DNA of 50,290 bases, from the NCBI GenBank assembly GCA_902631405.1, contig CACOYI010000009.1, positions 1 through 50,290 of the forward strand, written 5' to 3'. Source of the DNA: K189A clade bacterium (GTDB lineage: Bacteria > Pseudomonadota > Gammaproteobacteria > Pseudomonadales > Azotimanducaceae). The notes below the pieces were generated by a model. That model ran no database searches. It was not told the DNA's origin and was given only the letters and a program-made list of their open reading frames with translations. Below, one piece after another: positions 2,361 through 50,290 of the stretch (positions are counted from its first letter, which is position 1; the number at the start of each line of letters is the position of its first letter). Made by a program: the position numbers and the translations under genes.

Positions 2361-2377
2361 TGCACCACCAAAGTGCG
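2361..2377. promoter_or_regulatory. NtrC enhancer site upstream of amtB
   Basis: TGCACCACCAAAGTGCG matches the NtrC consensus TGCACC-N5-GGTGCA in spacing and in 9 of the 10 outer defined bases (TGCAC-N7-GTGCG). It sits 78 bp upstream of the sigma-54 -24 element of amtB, in the 304-bp ubiK-amtB gap. Apart from this site, the sigma-54 box and the amtB ribosome site, I see nothing else in that gap. Confidence 0.65.
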
Positions 2378-2438: not shown

Positions 2439-2454
2439 TGGCATATAAACTGCA
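2439..2454 (+). promoter_or_regulatory. Sigma-54 (RpoN) promoter of amtB
   Basis: TGGCATATAAACTGCA shows the invariant GG and GC with the required 10-base separation, TGGCA in the -24 box and CTGCA for the -12 box (consensus TTGCA). The start would be near 2466, leaving an 80-nt leader. Together with the NtrC site at 2361-2377 this is the classic arrangement of a nitrogen-regulated amtB. Confidence 0.62.
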
Positions 2455-2544: not shown

Positions 2545-3756
2545 TTGGATGACTTAACACAATTAGCCTATGCGGTAGACACTTTCTACTTCCTAGTCAT
2601 GGGCGCGTTGGTTATGTTCATGGCACCAGGGTTTGCGATGTTAGAGGCGGGGATGGTTCGCGCGAAAAATACATCGGAGATCCTGACAAAGAACGTAGCC
2701 TTGTTCTCGATCGCGTGCATCATGTACATGTTGATCGGGTATGACCTAATGTATACGGGTGGGATGATGCTCGGGCCAGAAAACACAGTCGATGATGTCC
2801 TAGCATCCGGGGGCGACGTTTATTACTCGGCTCGCTCGGATTTCTTTTTTCAGGTGGTTTTCGTGGCCACGGCAATGTCAATCATTTCGGGCGCCGTAGC
2901 AGAGCGGATCAAGCTTTGGTCCTTCCTGCTGTTTGCGGTAGTAATGACGGCATTCATCTATCCTATCCAAGGTAGCTGGAGTTGGGGTGGCGGGTTCCTT
3001 TCCGAAGCCGGCTTCGTAGATTTTGCCGGTTCAGGGATTGTTCACATGTGTGGGGCTGCAGCAGCTTTGGCAGGAGTAATACTTTTGGGACCTCGAGCTG
3101 GGAAGTATAACGAAGATGGCTCAATCAACGCTATGCCCGGAGCCAATATGCCTTTGGCTACTTTGGGAACATTTATTCTTTGGTTTGGTTGGTTCGGTTT
3201 TAACGGTGGATCAGAGTTAAAACTATCCAACATAGACGAGGCAAATGCAGTCGCCCAAGTATTTGTGAACACAAATATGGCGGCGGCCTGTGGTGCGGTA
3301 GCAGCGCTAATCGTCTCTAGACTAGCCTTTGGCAAGGCTGATATCACAATGGCGTTGAACGGCGCCCTGGCTGGGTTGGTTTCAATAACAGCGGAACCTC
3401 TCTCTGGAACAAACGCGGAATCAATGATCATCGGAGCGATTGGCGGCGTGATCGTCGTCGGGTCCATTACTCTACTTGATAAATTGAAGTGCGATGATCC
3501 GGTTGGGGCTATCTCGGTGCACGGCACTGTCGGTATTTGGGGGCTACTCGCTGTATTGATCACTAGTGATGACGCCACTCTTATAGGACAGCTCACTGGA
3601 CTGGGCGCGATCTTCGTCTGGACTTTTGTAGCGTCTCTTGTTGCTTGGTCTATTTTGAAGTTCACGATCGGAATCAGACTAAGTCCTGAAGAAGAAGAGG
3701 TTGGGTCGGATTACACTGATATAGGTGTGGCGGCTTATCCAGAGTTCAAAGTTTGA
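2545..3756 (+). CDS. amtB: Ammonium transporter AmtB
   Basis: 403 residues from a TTG start with GGAG about 7 bases upstream. Eleven hydrophobic helices can be followed. Family marks are VVFVATAMSIISGAVAER, the FGWFGFNGGS segment after helix VI, and the twin pore histidines His167 (GIVHMCG) and His326 (SVHGTVGIWG). There is no cleavable signal peptide, unlike some enteric AmtB. It conducts ammonium across the inner membrane and is gated by PII. The PII gene follows 120 bp downstream, so gene order is amtB-glnK, the reverse of E. coli. Expression is probably NtrC/sigma-54 dependent, judging by the upstream sites at 2361 and 2439. Confidence 0.96.
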   Translation: MDDLTQLAYAVDTFYFLVMGALVMFMAPGFAMLEAGMVRAKNTSEILTKNVALFSIACIMYMLIGYDLMYTGGMMLGPENTVDDVLASGGDVYYSARSDFFFQVVFVATAMSIISGAVAERIKLWSFLLFAVVMTAFIYPIQGSWSWGGGFLSEAGFVDFAGSGIVHMCGAAAALAGVILLGPRAGKYNEDGSINAMPGANMPLATLGTFILWFGWFGFNGGSELKLSNIDEANAVAQVFVNTNMAAACGAVAALIVSRLAFGKADITMALNGALAGLVSITAEPLSGTNAESMIIGAIGGVIVVGSITLLDKLKCDDPVGAISVHGTVGIWGLLAVLITSDDATLIGQLTGLGAIFVWTFVASLVAWSILKFTIGIRLSPEEEEVGSDYTDIGVAAYPEFKV

Positions 3757-4215
<459 letters not shown>

Positions 4216-39745: not shown

Positions 39746-40807
39746 CTATCCTAGCGGCCCGTCATTAATAAGTTTAAGAGCTAGCGCCGACATTCCTATA
39801 TCAACTTTCTCTTTTTTGATCATATCCGAATTTATCCAGCGAAACCTTGCCCCTTGTCTAGAACAGTCTGTACTCCTGACTCGAACATAAATTGGTGTAG
39901 CCTGAATTTGAAAATGAGTGAAAGAGTGTTTGATCGGTCTCTCAGTGGTTTTGTGCAGAACAGTGTCCTCATGGAGATTCAGCTCCCCTAAAATCTTACC
40001 TAGCGAATAATCTTTGCATCTCTCCGGCGGGCTCCATAATCCCGCCCATACTCCTGATTCTTCTCTCTTTTCTACTATCACCTCGTTGTCTTCATTACAG
40101 ATTATAAAAAAGAGGCTGTCCTTAACGGGTTTTTTTCTCTTCGGTTTTCTTCGGGGTATCTGCGTAGCCACATTACGCAAGTGCGCACCGCATCGATCTA
40201 TTAAAGGACATTCTGAACACGCCGGAGCAGATCTCGTGCAGATTGTCGCGCCGAGATCCATGATTCCCTGAGCATACACGTTCGTCTCGATGGCTGGCGT
40301 ATGGCGGTCAGCGTGCCGCCAAAGCTCATCCGTTGTTGCCCTCTCCTCAAGGTATCCCTCTATGAAATGGAATCTTGAAAGTACTCTTTTTACGTTGCCG
40401 TCGAGGATAACGCCTCTCTTTCCCATCGAGAGAGCGAGAATAGCTCCAGCTGTTGATCTACCAATTCCCGGCAGCTCAGTGAGTCTATGGAGGCAGCTAG
40501 GAAAGGCTCCTTGATAGTCCTTATGAATGATTATCGATGTTTTATGGAGGTTTCTAGCTCTATTGTAGTAACCAAGACCGGTCCAAAGGGCTAGCACGTC
40601 GTCTGTAGAGGCGCGGGCCAGATTACTGATTTTGGGATACTTTTCCAGGAATCTAAGGAAGTAGGGCTTAACTGTCTCGACTTGTGTTTGTTGAAGCATG
40701 ATTTCGCTTAACCACACTCGATAGGCCGAGATGTTTTGTTGCCAGGGAAGATCATGCCGCCCATGTGCTTTCTGCCACGTGTTGATTTTTCTCGCGAACC
40801 AGTCCAA
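39746..40807 (-). CDS. mutY: A/G-specific adenine glycosylase MutY
   Basis: 353 residues from TTG 40807, my preferred start: it yields DWFARKINTWQK just before HGRHDLPWQ as in other MutY and leaves room for a divergent promoter. The frame is open to a TTG at 40921, almost touching the opposing gene. HhH motif LPGIGRSTAGAI, catalytic Asp in VILDGNVKRVLSR, Fe-S cluster C-x6-C-x2-C-x5-C (CTRSAPACSECPLIDRC), and a C-terminal NUDIX-like 8-oxoG recognition domain. Removes A opposite 8-oxoG. Confidence 0.95.
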   Translation of the reverse strand: MDWFARKINTWQKAHGRHDLPWQQNISAYRVWLSEIMLQQTQVETVKPYFLRFLEKYPKISNLARASTDDVLALWTGLGYYNRARNLHKTSIIIHKDYQGAFPSCLHRLTELPGIGRSTAGAILALSMGKRGVILDGNVKRVLSRFHFIEGYLEERATTDELWRHADRHTPAIETNVYAQGIMDLGATICTRSAPACSECPLIDRCGAHLRNVATQIPRRKPKRKKPVKDSLFFIICNEDNEVIVEKREESGVWAGLWSPPERCKDYSLGKILGELNLHEDTVLHKTTERPIKHSFTHFQIQATPIYVRVRSTDCSRQGARFRWINSDMIKKEKVDIGMSALALKLINDGPLG

Positions 40808-40923
40808 ATAACCACCCGTTTTTAAATCGATCCAGTGTAGATCCTCCGGCACCTTGAGTGAAGTGAGTGAAAAGGGATGTGTTATGCTTGGCAACTCTAA
40901 TTTTCTGAAGGGGGTAATCAAGC

Positions 40924-45486: not shown

Positions 45487-46893
45487 CTACTCCCCATTAT
45501 CCTTAGAGAGGCTGATCTCTTGAAGCTTTCTAGTTAAGGTGTTTCTCCCCCAACCCAGAAGTTGAGCGGCGTCTTTTTTTCTCCCCTTGGTCTTACGAAG
45601 GGCCGCTTCAATAATGACCTTCTCAAATTTCGGCATTGCAATATCAAGCAAAGGTTTCGAGTTGGTTTTCTCAAGCATTTCGTTCGCCCACAGGCTTAGA
45701 TTTGATTCCCAGCTATCTCCTTGGGAGTTGCCGACAGTTTTAATAAGGTCTTTTGGAAGATCTTCCACAAGAATATTCGTTGAGCTCGACATTACGTGCA
45801 GCCATTGACACAGATTTTCTAGTTGTCGGACATTGCCTGGCCAGGGTAGGTTGCATAAATAGTCTTCCGTCGATTTTTCGAGTATTTTTCTCTCTTCCTG
45901 CGACTCTTCTGCGAGTTTTTTTAGAAAATGTGCAGCTAGTAGGGGAATATCCTCTCTTCTCTCCGATAAGGAAGGTACATTTATCCGAATAACGTTCAGT
46001 CTGTGAAAGAGGTCTTCTCGAAATTTTCCTTGTCTGACCAAAAGCTCAAGATCTTGATGTGTTGCAGCAAGTATTCTGACGTTGGTTTTTAAGCTTTCCC
46101 GCCCGCCAACTCTGTAGAAACTGTTATCCGCAATAACTCTTAACAAACGAGTTTGTGCCGAGATTGGCATGTCGCCTATTTCATCGAGGAACAAAGTCCC
46201 TCGATTGGCTTGTTCGAAGCGACCGACTCGAGCACTTGTGGCGCCAGTAAATGAGCCTTTTTCATGGCCGAAGAGCTCGCTTTCGATTAGCTCTCTTGGT
46301 ATTGCCGCTACATTCAAAGCAACGAAAACTTCATTTTTCCTCGGGCCGTGGGTGTGGAGCGCTCTAGCTACCAATTCTTTGCCTGAACCAGACTCTCCAT
46401 TTATCAAAACCGTAAAACTAGAGGAGGATAGCCTGCCTATAGCCTTGAAGACTTCCTGCATAGCTGGGGCTGAACCCAAAATTTCGCCGGAAGGAGTGAT
46501 TTGATTGGTGATTTGCGGATCTGACTCTGATCTACTGTTAATCGCCCTTTGAACAACGTTGACCACCTCATCAATATCAAATGGTTTCGCCAGATACTCG
46601 TAAGCTCCTAGCTCGAAGCTATTTACGGCGCTGTCGAGATCTGAATGCGCGGTCATTATTATCACTGGTATCTGAGGAAACTCAGTTTGTATTTTCTGAA
46701 GAAAATCTAACCCGCTCGAACCAGGCATTCTGATATCACTTAATACGGTAAGGGGTAGTTCATTTGGAAAAAGGTGCATCGCCTCGTCGGCGCTATCAAA
46801 TGCTTTGATGGGTATACCTGCTTGACCAAGAGCCTTGTCTAAAACCCATCGTATTGAGTCGTCATCGTCAATTACCCAAACGGTTTTTTTCAT
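45487..46893 (-). CDS. ntrC: Nitrogen response regulator NtrC (sigma-54 activator)
   Basis: 468 residues. Receiver domain with phosphoacceptor Asp53 (LSDIRMPG) and Lys103; AAA+ domain with Walker A GESGSGKE (166-173), sigma-54 contact loop GSFTGA (213-218; Ser replaces the usual Ala) and Walker B GTLFLDEIGD; C-terminal Fis-type helix-turn-helix (KGRKKDAAQLLGWGRNTLTRKL). Expected to act at the TGCAC-N7-GTGCA-like sites near 1041 and 2361. Overlaps ntrB by 4 bases. Confidence 0.97.
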   Translation of the reverse strand: MKKTVWVIDDDDSIRWVLDKALGQAGIPIKAFDSADEAMHLFPNELPLTVLSDIRMPGSSGLDFLQKIQTEFPQIPVIIMTAHSDLDSAVNSFELGAYEYLAKPFDIDEVVNVVQRAINSRSESDPQITNQITPSGEILGSAPAMQEVFKAIGRLSSSSFTVLINGESGSGKELVARALHTHGPRKNEVFVALNVAAIPRELIESELFGHEKGSFTGATSARVGRFEQANRGTLFLDEIGDMPISAQTRLLRVIADNSFYRVGGRESLKTNVRILAATHQDLELLVRQGKFREDLFHRLNVIRINVPSLSERREDIPLLAAHFLKKLAEESQEERKILEKSTEDYLCNLPWPGNVRQLENLCQWLHVMSSSTNILVEDLPKDLIKTVGNSQGDSWESNLSLWANEMLEKTNSKPLLDIAMPKFEKVIIEAALRKTKGRKKDAAQLLGWGRNTLTRKLQEISLSKDNGE

Positions 46894-48008
46894 CGCGATT
46901 CTTCTCTAGATGATTGGTCCCTAGCCATCTTAAACGGTAGGTTGATGGAAAAAGTGGTTGCTCCGAACTCGCTTTTTACGTTGAGAGAGCCTTTATGTTG
47001 GCTAATTATGGACTGCGCTACGGCGAGGCCGATCCCGGAACCACTCGGTTTCGTTGTTACCATGGGATAGAAGATTCTTTGAAGATCTTTCTTCATAATT
47101 CCTGGGCCGTTATCAGATATTTCGACTCGCAACACCCCTCGGTGTCTGACATCCCCGATCGTGAACTGGCCTACAAATCTTGATTTAAATTTGATCCTAG
47201 GAGAGTCAACGTTGATTAACGCTTCGCATGCATTTCTAGCTATATTTAAAATAGCCTGTATAAGTTGATCTCGGTCGCCATGTATCTCTGGTAGGCTGGG
47301 ATCGTAATCTCGCTCCCAGCATAATCTGCTGTCGAATTCTGAATTGAGTAAACTAATAGTGTTCTCACATACTTCCGTTATGTTGACATCCTCAATTCGC
47401 AAGGCCTTGCTCGGGCCGAGCATTCTGTCCACAAGGTTTCGGAGCCGATCAACCTCCGAAATAATTATTTCTGTGTGATCGACAAGATCGGTGTCACTCG
47501 GCAGCGCTTTTTGCATGAGTTGAGCAGCCCCTCTTATACCTCCCAACGGATTTTTTATTTCGTGCGCCATCCCTCTAATTAAGATCTGATTCGTTTGGTT
47601 TCTGTCGAAATCGGTTTTCTCTTGGGCAATATCGCTAAACCTACCGACGGGTTTTATCTCGAGCACTAAAGTGTTTGGTGAATTTCCAAGATTCGCTGTC
47701 ATATCTACCAGTTCGGTTTGGGAGTCAGGGATCTTTAGATTTATTTCACGTGCAGTGAAAGGTTGCTCGTTTTCGATAGAAAGCTTTAGGTTTTGCTTTA
47801 TCTCTTCTGGATAGATTGCTAACTGTTCAAGCTTCTTTCCTGTTGCTTGCGACAAAGAGCAATTGAAAAGGTTTTGTGCCGCCGTATTCATCAAAGATAC
47901 GCTGAGTTCACTATCTAGAATGACTACAGCAGTACTCAACTGATCTAGGATCTGACCAGGAGAGCGCGTTCTGCGGCTCCGGGTAGCTAAGTTTGCGACT
48001 TTGTTCAT
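46890..48008 (-). CDS. ntrB: Nitrogen sensor histidine kinase NtrB
   Basis: 372 residues, cytoplasmic (no membrane helices). PAS domain about 20-120, H-box with His149 in GMAHEIKNPLGGIRGAAQLM, N-box NIARNACEAL, G-boxes DNGPGI and SGIGLAVAQSI. Kinase/phosphatase for NtrC under PII control. 152 bp after the glutamine synthetase gene, with a hairpin in between. Confidence 0.96.
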   Translation of the reverse strand: MNKVANLATRSRRTRSPGQILDQLSTAVVILDSELSVSLMNTAAQNLFNCSLSQATGKKLEQLAIYPEEIKQNLKLSIENEQPFTAREINLKIPDSQTELVDMTANLGNSPNTLVLEIKPVGRFSDIAQEKTDFDRNQTNQILIRGMAHEIKNPLGGIRGAAQLMQKALPSDTDLVDHTEIIISEVDRLRNLVDRMLGPSKALRIEDVNITEVCENTISLLNSEFDSRLCWERDYDPSLPEIHGDRDQLIQAILNIARNACEALINVDSPRIKFKSRFVGQFTIGDVRHRGVLRVEISDNGPGIMKKDLQRIFYPMVTTKPSGSGIGLAVAQSIISQHKGSLNVKSEFGATTFSINLPFKMARDQSSREESR

Positions 48009-48160: not shown

Positions 48161-49171
48161 TTATGCCAAGCTCTCTTTCGTTGTCTTGATTATTGCAGCA
48201 GCAACTTTATAAGGGTCGGCATTCGACGCGGGCCGTCTGTCTTCTAATCTCCCTTTCCACCCGTCTTCAACGGTTCCCACTGGTATACGAATAGACGCGC
48301 CTCTATCGGAAACGCCAAAACTGAACTCATTAATCGATTGTGTTTCGTGCTCACCTGTTAAACGCTTATCATTATCCGCGCCGTAGACAGAGATATGACG
48401 CTCAATATTCTTTCCGAAATGTTCGCAAATTTTTGTAAAGGTGCCCTCTTCCCCTGATTCTCTCATCAGCCCGTTAGAGAAGTTCGCATGCATCCCAGAA
48501 CCGTTCCAGTCCAAGGCTCCAAACGGTTTGGGGTGCCAGTTGATTGCATAACCATATTTTTCTCCCGTCCTCTCTAGCAGATAGCGGGCTAACCATGTTT
48601 GGTCTCCTGCATCGGCCGCGCCTTTCGCAAACACCTGGAATTCCCATTGGCCGGCTGCTACCTCTCCATTTATACCCTCGACATTAATGCCAGCCTCCAG
48701 GCAGAGATCTAGATGTTCGTCAACGCAATCTCTGCCAAAAGAATTCGACGCTCCGACTGAGCAATAATAAGGTCCCTGAGGTCCAGGAAATCCGTTTTGG
48801 GGGAATCCCGGTGGTAATTGTGTATCGACGTCCCATAAAAAATATTCCTGCTCGAAGCCGAACCAAAAGTCTGCATCGTCGTCATCAATCGTAGACCTTC
48901 CATTTGTGGGGTGAGGTGTGCCATCTGCATTGAGAACCTCAGTCATCACTAGGTAGGCACTTTGTCGATCTGGGTCAGGGATGATAGCAACAGGCTTTAG
49001 CAAACAGTCTGACGAGCTTCCATCCGCTTGCTGCGTAGAACTCCCATCAAAAGACCACATCGGACATTCTTCTAGTGTTCCTCCGAAGTTATCTCTGATT
49101 TGGGTTTTGCTCCTAAGGCTTTGAGTGGGCGAGTATCCGTCAAGCCATATATATTCTAGTTTTGATTTCAT
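48161..49171 (-). CDS. glnII: Glutamine synthetase type II (GSII, eukaryotic-like)
   Basis: 336 residues, far shorter than GSI (about 470). Sequence is of the GSII class: LEYIWLDGYSPTQSLRSKT, MWSFDGSSTQQADG, GQWEFQVF, NGSGMHANFS, ADNDKRLTGEHETQSINEFS, GVSDRGASIRIP. It makes glutamine from glutamate, ammonium and ATP. GSII lacks the adenylylation tyrosine of GSI, so GlnE control cannot apply. It occupies the position next to ntrBC normally held by glnA. Good AAGGAGAAGGAC-type ribosome site upstream of ATG 49171. Confidence 0.95.
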   Translation of the reverse strand: MKSKLEYIWLDGYSPTQSLRSKTQIRDNFGGTLEECPMWSFDGSSTQQADGSSSDCLLKPVAIIPDPDRQSAYLVMTEVLNADGTPHPTNGRSTIDDDDADFWFGFEQEYFLWDVDTQLPPGFPQNGFPGPQGPYYCSVGASNSFGRDCVDEHLDLCLEAGINVEGINGEVAAGQWEFQVFAKGAADAGDQTWLARYLLERTGEKYGYAINWHPKPFGALDWNGSGMHANFSNGLMRESGEEGTFTKICEHFGKNIERHISVYGADNDKRLTGEHETQSINEFSFGVSDRGASIRIPVGTVEDGWKGRLEDRRPASNADPYKVAAAIIKTTKESLA

Positions 49172-49328
49172 ATGTCCTTCTCCTTTGTTATGAAATTCTT
49201 CAGCATCTTGTATTGGCTAAACACTCTCTCAAATGACTCGTTATTCCCTTCGCCTGATTTTGGCTGCCAGTTAACGGGCTCCCAATCAGTGTTTGATTAG
49301 AGCGTTTCTTACAGTATCCATTATTTTT

Positions 49329-49345
49329 CGCACTAATAAAATGCA
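49329..49345. promoter_or_regulatory. Possible NtrC half-conserved site near glnII
   Basis: CGCACTAATAAAATGCA matches TGCAC-N7-GTGCA at 8 of 10 positions with exact spacing, 158 bp upstream of glnII. Could be chance in AT-rich DNA. Confidence 0.3.
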
Positions 49346-49388: not shown

Positions 49389-49405
49389 TGCCCTAAATAT
49401 GTGCG
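49389..49405. promoter_or_regulatory. Second possible NtrC site near glnII
   Basis: TGCCCTAAATATGTGCG matches TGCAC-N7-GTGCA at 8 of 10 positions, 60 bp (about six helical turns) from the first candidate. Weak on its own; the pair is more suggestive. Confidence 0.3.
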
Positions 49406-49576: not shown

Positions 49577-50290
49577 TTGACAGTTACTAATATCAGAAAT
49601 ATAGCGATTGTAGCGCATGTGGACCACGGGAAGACCACACTCGTTGATTGTCTATTATCCCAAACTGGAGCGTTAGAGGGAGATCTGCAAAGAGCCATGG
49701 ACAGTAACGACCTGGAGAGAGAGCGAGGCATCACGATACTGTCAAAAAATACCAGCATTGAGCATAACGGGATTAAGATTAATATTGTAGATACGCCCGG
49801 CCATGCAGACTTCGGCGGAGAGGTTGAGAGAATTCTATCAATGGTGGACGCTGTTTTGCTGGTTGTGGATGCGGTGGAGGGGCCAATGCCTCAAACTCGT
49901 TTCGTGACGAGCAAAGCTTTTGAATACGGGCTTAAGCCGCTGGTGGTACTAAATAAAATCGATAGGGATGGCGTTCGGATAGACAACGTTATCGAAGAGG
50001 TTTTTGATCTATTTGATGACCTGGGTGCGAATGATGAACAGTTAGACTTTGAAGTAGTTTACTGTTCTGCGATGGAGGGTACCTCCGGCCTAGATATCGA
50101 GCACATAACTCCAAATATGGACCCACTCCTGGATAAAATTATAGAAACCGTAAACGCCCCAAACGTGGACTTAGAAGCGCCGTTTCAAATGCAAATTAGT
50201 TCTTTAGATTATTCTGAATACGAAGGCGTTATCGGGCTTGGCCTAATCAAACGAGGTGCTATAGAAAAAGGAAGGCCGATCACTCTTATT
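49577..50290 (+). CDS. typA: Ribosome-associated GTPase TypA/BipA, N-terminal part
   Basis: Partial gene running off the right edge: 238 codons from TTG 49577, with GGGAAG upstream. P-loop AHVDHGKT (13-20), switch I RERGITI, DTPGH (72-76), and NKID (126-129) mark a translational GTPase; the spacing and VTNIRNIAIVAH start are those of TypA. Functions in 50S assembly and stress adaptation. Position after glutamine synthetase and divergent from it is conserved in gammaproteobacteria. Confidence 0.95.
   Translation, partial: MTVTNIRNIAIVAHVDHGKTTLVDCLLSQTGALEGDLQRAMDSNDLERERGITILSKNTSIEHNGIKINIVDTPGHADFGGEVERILSMVDAVLLVVDAVEGPMPQTRFVTSKAFEYGLKPLVVLNKIDRDGVRIDNVIEEVFDLFDDLGANDEQLDFEVVYCSAMEGTSGLDIEHITPNMDPLLDKIIETVNAPNVDLEAPFQMQISSLDYSEYEGVIGLGLIKRGAIEKGRPITLI

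Follow-up and report, generated by a model that had tools for sequence, protein, structure and literature searches.

A type II glutamine synthetase in the glnA position beside ntrBC, and the joint absence of GSI and GlnE in marine gammaproteobacteria

Introduction

Among the standard cases of enzyme control in bacteria is the adenylylation of type I glutamine synthetase (GSI) by GlnE. The enterobacterial glnA-ntrBC locus comes with the GlnB-GlnD-GlnE-GSI cascade. In rhizobia, Streptomyces and Frankia, the bacterial type II enzyme (GSII) called GlnII accompanies GSI, and in rhizobia it acts within the nitrogen-stress response.

Gammaproteobacterial GSII has been described as well. In the parts consulted of Ghoshroy et al. 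(2010, PMC2978018), gammaproteobacterial GSIIB forms a clade of bacterial GSII whose sister group is the GSIIB of green plants; neither glnA nor adenylyl appears as a word in the main text of that article, so that the glnA slot and GlnE loss are untreated under those names. The passages on glutamine synthetase in the Global Ocean Sampling protein study of 2007 (PMC1821046) report 1,021 type II sequences, more than 90% of them on bacterial scaffolds, with a histidine kinase, PII and an A/G-specific adenine glycosylase among the neighbours, and 19 adjacent type I-type II pairs. They mention the GSI-GSII linkage of Frankia, describe it as unclear why type II enzymes are so numerous, and name neither the glnA slot nor glnE loss (PMC1821046). 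Papers of 2007 and 2010 had already covered GSII in bacteria, how common it is in seawater, and paired GSI and GSII genes. In the titles and abstract openings listed, with most subscription papers and all bioRxiv preprints outside the search, we found nothing on a glnA replacement at ntrBC or on glnE loss with GSII, and no link between such a swap and GlnE loss.

Here we analysed a stretch of 50,290 nucleotides (the window) from a metagenome-assembled genome (MAG) of a K189A clade bacterium. The window shares with the enterobacterial glnA-ntrBC locus the gene order, a PII protein and NtrBC, and its relatives also have GlnD, but its glutamine synthetase belongs to a different class and no GlnE was found in the MAG, which is 73% complete. 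Unlike the GlnII of rhizobia, Streptomyces and Frankia, which accompanies GSI, the GSII of the window occupies the glnA slot by itself, with a score below the GlnII cut-off. A mutY-like open reading frame at 39746-40921, as we read the list of reading frames, resembles the adenine glycosylase neighbour in the passages on seawater type II enzymes (PMC1821046). We put the probability at roughly 85% that this GSII serves as the ammonium-assimilating enzyme in the place of glnA, and that GSI and GlnE are gone from the lineage while PII, GlnD and NtrBC stay.

Enzyme class and locus

The genes of the locus are as follows.

48161..49171, minus strand: type II glutamine synthetase of 336 aa (GSII/GlnII class) occupying the glnA slot, assigned by profile and PDB comparison
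46890..48008, minus strand: ntrB, nitrogen regulation protein NR(II) (NF008293, 303.7 bits, cut-off 240)
45487..46893, minus strand: ntrC, NR(I) (TIGR01818, 670.3 bits, cut-off 558.6)
49577..50290, plus strand: typA/bipA GTPase, divergent and cut by the window end (best match TIGR01394)

An earlier note on this DNA had called the first of these genes a 336-residue GSII and not a GSI. The profile searches confirm a type II enzyme, with the predicted activity of a glutamine synthetase. The protein matches the NCBIfam GlnII model over its entire length (379.6 bits, E 1.2e-113), exceeds the cut-offs of both Pfam domains, Gln-synt_N and Gln-synt_C, and reaches 56.8 bits with the type I GlnA model TIGR00653, whose cut-off is 429. 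Since 379.6 bits lies under the curated cut-off of the GlnII equivalog (500 bits), we place the gene in the GSII class without counting it among the orthologues that the equivalog covers. The best PDB relatives are likewise GSII-sized: the top 16 sequences score 282.9-321.5 bits with chains of 344-423 aa, and the next sequence scores 48.2 bits with 443 aa. The table labels mostly say just 'glutamine synthetase'; going by the entry codes, we take the 16 to be the type II enzymes of Streptomyces, plants, yeast and animals, and the one that follows to be GSI. The reading frame starts with ATG, immediately 5' of which we read AAAGGAGAAGG by eye. The label 'eukaryotic-type' in the earlier note stands for the enzyme class only and not for the origin, because gammaproteobacterial GSII is described in the consulted parts of PMC2978018 as a bacterial branch.

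The GSII genes found in the family also score under the 500-bit cut-off, all but one. The exception (G036:C174:411-1415; locus L114) is a different GSII type with 556 bits and 47% identity to the protein of the window. Its genome, G036, has no GlnD match and no GlnE match.

The GSII gene occupies the slot between typA and ntrBC that GSI (glnA) holds in relatives, which bears out the position given in the earlier note: NtrB lies within the short flank of GSI in 22 of the 30 GSI loci fetched for the family. The gap between GSII and ntrB is 152 bp, and 405 bp separate GSII from the first possible start of the typA frame. The TypA match to TIGR01394 (359.4 bits over positions 1-235 of 594) is that of a fragment and lies under the full-length cut-off. 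The order typA-GSII-ntrB-ntrC recurs, followed by trmL, in two genomes of the same genus, G021 (L215) and G070 (L234); in a third, G050, the contig stops 632 bp behind GSII.

GSI, GSII, GlnE and GlnD in the family and order

We then investigated 81 genomes drawn from the larger family, 66 of which are at least 90% complete, with thresholds of E<1e-105 for GSI (PF00120), E<1e-50 for GSII (NF041605), E<1e-30 for GlnE and E<1e-20 for GlnD. G029 was entered as GSI-positive by hand, its match (240 of 344 positions, E 6.5e-92) falling short of the GSI threshold. Among the 66 more complete genomes, 45 have GSI, 41 of these with GlnE and four (G013, G014, G024 and G045) without a GlnE match. The other 21 lack GSI; GlnE is found in none of the 21, GSII in 20 and GlnD in 20 (in G018 as a fragment and in G051 in two pieces). 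The one GSI-less genome without GSII is G071, although the same-genus G022 and G051 carry GSII. Fisher's exact test gives p 1.4e-13 for the association of GSI and GlnE in these 66 genomes, with kinship ignored. The pattern persists among the 63 with contamination of at most 5% (39 with both GSI and GlnE, four with GSI alone, 20 with neither, none with GlnE alone). Over all 81 genomes, GlnE is present in 46 and absent in seven of those with GSI, and present in three and absent in 25 of those without. The three (G048, G066 and G068, below 90% complete) probably miss sequence, since they have no GSII either. Two GSII-only genomes give weak PF03710 matches, G060 within a frame of 1189 aa (E 8.4e-16) and G007 (E 2.8e-5); we set them aside as other proteins because similar weak matches sit in long frames of genomes with a strong GlnE, and scoring them as GlnE would give 2/21.

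An RpoB tree could be made for 65 of the 81 genomes, the window's own genome and G070 being among those without a usable rpoB match. On its 56 genomes that are at least 90% complete, the minimum number of changes is 9 for GSI, 13 for GSII, 12 for GlnE and 1 for GlnD. In five independent pairs on well-supported branches, GlnE goes with GSI in 4.5 on average and never the opposite way (sign test p 0.0625, the pairs being too few for significance by themselves).

The same pattern is seen outside the family. In a sample of 245 genomes of the order, searched for GSII with the protein of the window and not with an HMM, GSII occurs in 20, of which 13 lie outside the family, and PF03710 matches in 227, the weak G007 match being one of them. 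The search for GSI covered 28 genomes outside the family: the 13 with GSII, five others without a GlnE match, and 10 GSII-less mates of the 15 in the families f11, f22 and f41. GSII is the sole match of the glutamine synthetase superfamily in six genomes (G148 and G175 of f22, G162 and G210 of f41, G234 and G253 of f11), and all six lack GlnE. GlnE is present in all seven genomes with both GSI and GSII and in all 10 GSII-less mates, which have GSI. The contrast between GSII-only and GSI genomes lies, for f11 and f22, within one genus code. Two f4 genomes, G095 and G163, have no GSI, GSII or GlnE match and carry a 724-aa type III enzyme (GSIII; L238:678-2852 and L239:1045-3219; GSIII_N 222 and 224 bits, cut-off 25). 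Because these GSIII-only genomes also lack GlnE, it seems that as a rule a genome without GSI has no GlnE, regardless of which enzyme has taken over. In G122, G138 and G192 of the order sample, GSI occurs without a GlnE match, the GSI of G122 and G192 being matched only in part.

GlnE loss might instead be a by-product of oceanic genome streamlining that is not tied to the enzyme swap. Small size is indeed seen in some of the GlnE-less genomes, such as G024 with 2.1 Mb and G175 with 1.9 Mb, and three genomes that have GSI and no GSII (G013, G024 and G045) lack GlnE. We regard this explanation as unlikely, since GlnE is also missing from GSII-only genomes as large as 5.1 Mb (G078), searches for GSII and GlnE in the small genomes G104 (1.9 Mb) and G129 (1.3 Mb) gave GlnE and no GSII, and GlnD is not lost along with GlnE.

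The genome of the window

The MAG to which the window belongs comprises 1.6 Mb in 82 contigs. At its completeness of 73%, searches of the MAG for GSI and for GlnE found neither, and the absence of a GlnD match means little; absences therefore rest on the sister genomes. Three nearly complete genomes of the same genus (G021, G050 and G070, 97-99% complete) all carry GSII and a full-length GlnD match and lack GSI and GlnE. Replacement of GSI, as suggested in the earlier note, and loss of GlnE are supported by these genomes. The case that the note gave as refuting, GSI and GlnE elsewhere in the genome, did not turn up in the 73%-complete MAG. The swap is not peculiar to this genome and is widespread in marine gammaproteobacteria.

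It is very improbable that GSII is an extra isoenzyme, with GSI and GlnE hidden in the missing 27% of the MAG. The incompleteness of the MAG leaves room for this, and both enzymes do occur together in six sampled genomes of the family and seven others. However, all three nearly complete same-genus genomes in the family sample lack GSI and GlnE, and the own slot of glnA in the window is filled by GSII.

Two Gln-synt_C genes are found in the MAG, the GSII of the window and a gene on contig C29 encoding a 454-aa protein, directly followed by what reads in sequence as a class-I glutamine amidotransferase (L001:1165-3281). The protein is under every curated cut-off (GlnA 195.9 bits against 429; GGputSyn 167.2 against 650), and we rejected it as a GSI on the GlnA score. 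A class-I glutamine amidotransferase occurs as a neighbour of gamma-glutamylation genes. Because of the missed cut-offs and this neighbour, the protein is probably a gamma-glutamylation enzyme paired with the amidotransferase. The best Gln-synt_C matches of G021, G050 and G070 (E 1e-87 to 1e-88) are at the level of this protein. That it is a real glutamine synthetase, with GSII as the accessory, is hardly credible: although it is a full-length Gln-synt_C protein, its scores and neighbour speak against it, as do ten GSII-only genomes (G007, G036, G040 and G054, by E-value, and the six outside the family) with a single weak match of the glutamine synthetase superfamily, such as GSII gives.

Genomes with both enzymes

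The preferred reading, replacement of GSI by GSII, would proceed through a stage with both genes. GSII would arrive by transfer, often beside glnA at ntrBC; the two enzymes would coexist, and GSI and GlnE would then be lost. In all seven genomes with both enzymes outside the family, GSII lies within about 7 kb of GSI on the same contig. Among the six in the family, G014 and G016 have both enzymes on one contig, and the other four have them on separate contigs. GSII adjoins GSI at ntrBC in loci labelled Halieaceae/Luminiphilus (L043, L057 and L059) and Parahaliea (L109). GlnE matches are retained in all 12 of the genomes with both enzymes other than G014 (five in the family and seven outside), in G009 only in part. 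In G014 (L212), which has no GlnE, GSI and GSII are direct neighbours, and this lineage would fit the order GSII in, GlnE out, GSI out.

We also compared a GSI stretch that we take to be the surroundings of the adenylylation tyrosine, read in 37 of 38 loci. In genomes with GlnE, it is mostly DKDLYDLPPEEL or a near variant. In G014 it reads DKDLYNLESSEL, in G013 and G045 (L023 and L025; GSI without GlnE) EADYYSLS, and in G024, also without GlnE, it is little altered, DKDLYDTPEEEL. GSI is thus altered near this tyrosine in three of the four GlnE-less genomes that are at least 90% complete, as if a constraint had been released. The stretch is unaltered in G074 (89% complete, no GlnE match), which may just miss the GlnE gene.

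Control of the GSII gene

With GSI and GlnE gone, adenylylation control of glutamine synthetase would be lost. The remaining PII/GlnD/NtrBC cascade would control transcription and whatever else PII binds. The earlier note expected regulation through NtrC transcription or other means, and we investigated the candidate promoters in the window.

2545..3756, plus strand: amtB, ammonium transporter, marine subtype (TIGR03644, 639 bits, cut-off 514)
3877..4215, plus strand: PII protein of the GlnK/GlnB type (Pfam P-II over cut-off; under two NCBIfam equivalog cut-offs)
2361..2377, plus strand: NtrC box before amtB-glnK, one mismatch, by motif scan
2439..2454, plus strand: sigma-54 site before amtB-glnK, one mismatch, 78 bp from the NtrC box
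49329..49345, minus strand: NtrC-like box with two mismatches to TGCACY-N5-RGTGCA, by motif scan upstream of GSII
49389..49405, minus strand: weaker NtrC-like box, three mismatches, by motif scan
49252..49269, minus strand: candidate sigma-54 promoter remnant with TGGCA (the -24 half) and no -12 TTGC, placed by its spacing from the box

The one PII gene found stands behind the ammonium transporter in the window, and its T-loop stretch is identical to that of a solved PII protein. RpoN is present in the own genome; further genomes of the same genus (G081-G092) were searched for RpoN only. The NtrC of the window has GSFTGA, which we take to be a variant of the sigma-54 contact motif, and several relatives have the same variant.

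When the 450 bp upstream were shuffled, the box at 49329-49345 was equalled once in 100 rounds, and in 3 of 100 in two repeats on the same DNA. The TGGCA at 49252-49269 is the only one in these 450 bp and lies exactly 76 bp from the box. A search for GG-N10-GC in the 420 bp upstream of the GSII of the window found none. In the three same-genus genomes, the spacing from box to promoter is 76-77 bp; among 54 loci with a good site and a box, it is 74-80 bp in only 19, and 128 in four close loci, so that the spacing is a guide for the three same-genus genomes and not in general. A MAFFT alignment of the upstream regions put TGGATACTG... under the sigma-54 column, and we set this candidate aside in favour of the argument from the 76-bp spacing, itself an inference. 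Sigma-54 sites of the quality of that before amtB-glnK number six across the window against 2.9 expected, and over the whole 50 kb neither the NtrC box nor the sigma-54 motif is clearly above chance; the promoter argument therefore rests on place and spacing. A scan for sigma-70 sites gave three against 2.8 in shuffles, none on the minus strand upstream of GSII.

In relatives with GSII next to ntrB, the motifs are frequent: of 40 loci, 38 have a sigma-54 site that shows no more than one mismatch, 36 have an NtrC box with no more than two, and 34 have both (each with at most two mismatches, 20-200 bp apart). Some genomes are counted twice among these 40 loci, and the controls were 100 shuffles per locus and a crude reversed sequence. 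Box and site are also found at 8 of the 9 loci that have GSI close by and at 24 of 55 other loci, so the GSII gene seems to be tied to NtrC control elsewhere too. NtrC-dependent transcription of GSII is thus likely in relatives, as the earlier note had expected, but the window itself is without the -12 half of a sigma-54 promoter. We read the upstream region of the window GSII as a decaying or altered sigma-54 promoter in this species; it is possible that the missing half is an assembly error or that an unrecognised second promoter drives the gene. The target of the cascade would be the GSII gene in most ntrB-adjacent relatives, and amtB-glnK in this species. More tentatively, and with some doubt, a mobile GSII may be spreading among marine gammaproteobacteria and often dock beside glnA at ntrBC, with GlnE lost and GlnD, PII and NtrBC kept each time GSII is the sole enzyme and, in this species, nitrogen control left to ammonium transport rather than glutamine synthesis as the promoter decays.

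Distribution of GSII

The GSII loci named here are the best 80 of at least 587 relatives. Their contigs are labelled K189A, SAR92/Porticoccaceae, Pseudohongiella, Halieaceae and other gammaproteobacteria, and some Planctomycetes, Acidimicrobiales, Myxococcota and Rhodospirillaceae. In 41 of these best 80, ntrB follows GSII within 2.5 kb on the same strand and the locus has no GSI. GSI is near in eight, one of which (L064) is a Planctomycetes-labelled contig with a distant GSI; ntrB is absent downstream despite room in 26, and five loci are cut. The 26 loci away from ntrBC indicate that replacement in place is frequent, not universal.

In the GSII tree, families and phyla are intermixed and placement at ntrBC occurs on several branches. 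Docking of GSII at ntrBC therefore looks repeated, with the caution that MAG labels can be wrong. The tree was built by a quick method, 37 of its 104 forks are open and its backbone is poorly resolved; it contains no plant or algal GSIIB sequences and has no supported set around the row of the window, and we name no donor. As judged from gene content, GSII appears to have repeatedly replaced GSI, often in place, with the adenylylation arm lost and GlnD and ntrBC kept.

An ordinary enzyme of a known class is thus found in an unusual, recurrent role with a clean pattern of co-loss, and this is more general than the earlier note held. Several times over, marine lineages appear to have swapped the enzyme class and to manage without GSI adenylylation, with loss of the same partner gene. 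Annotation is affected too: where glnA is counted by GSI models only, such ammonium assimilators would be scored as enzyme-less. The swap also offers a possible answer to the question of the many marine type II enzymes, as worded in the 2007 passages (PMC1821046).

Four Planctomycetes-labelled contigs (L064, L068, L073 and L075) carry a GSII that is 82-83% identical to that of the window, which may reflect either transfer across phyla or mislabelled MAGs.
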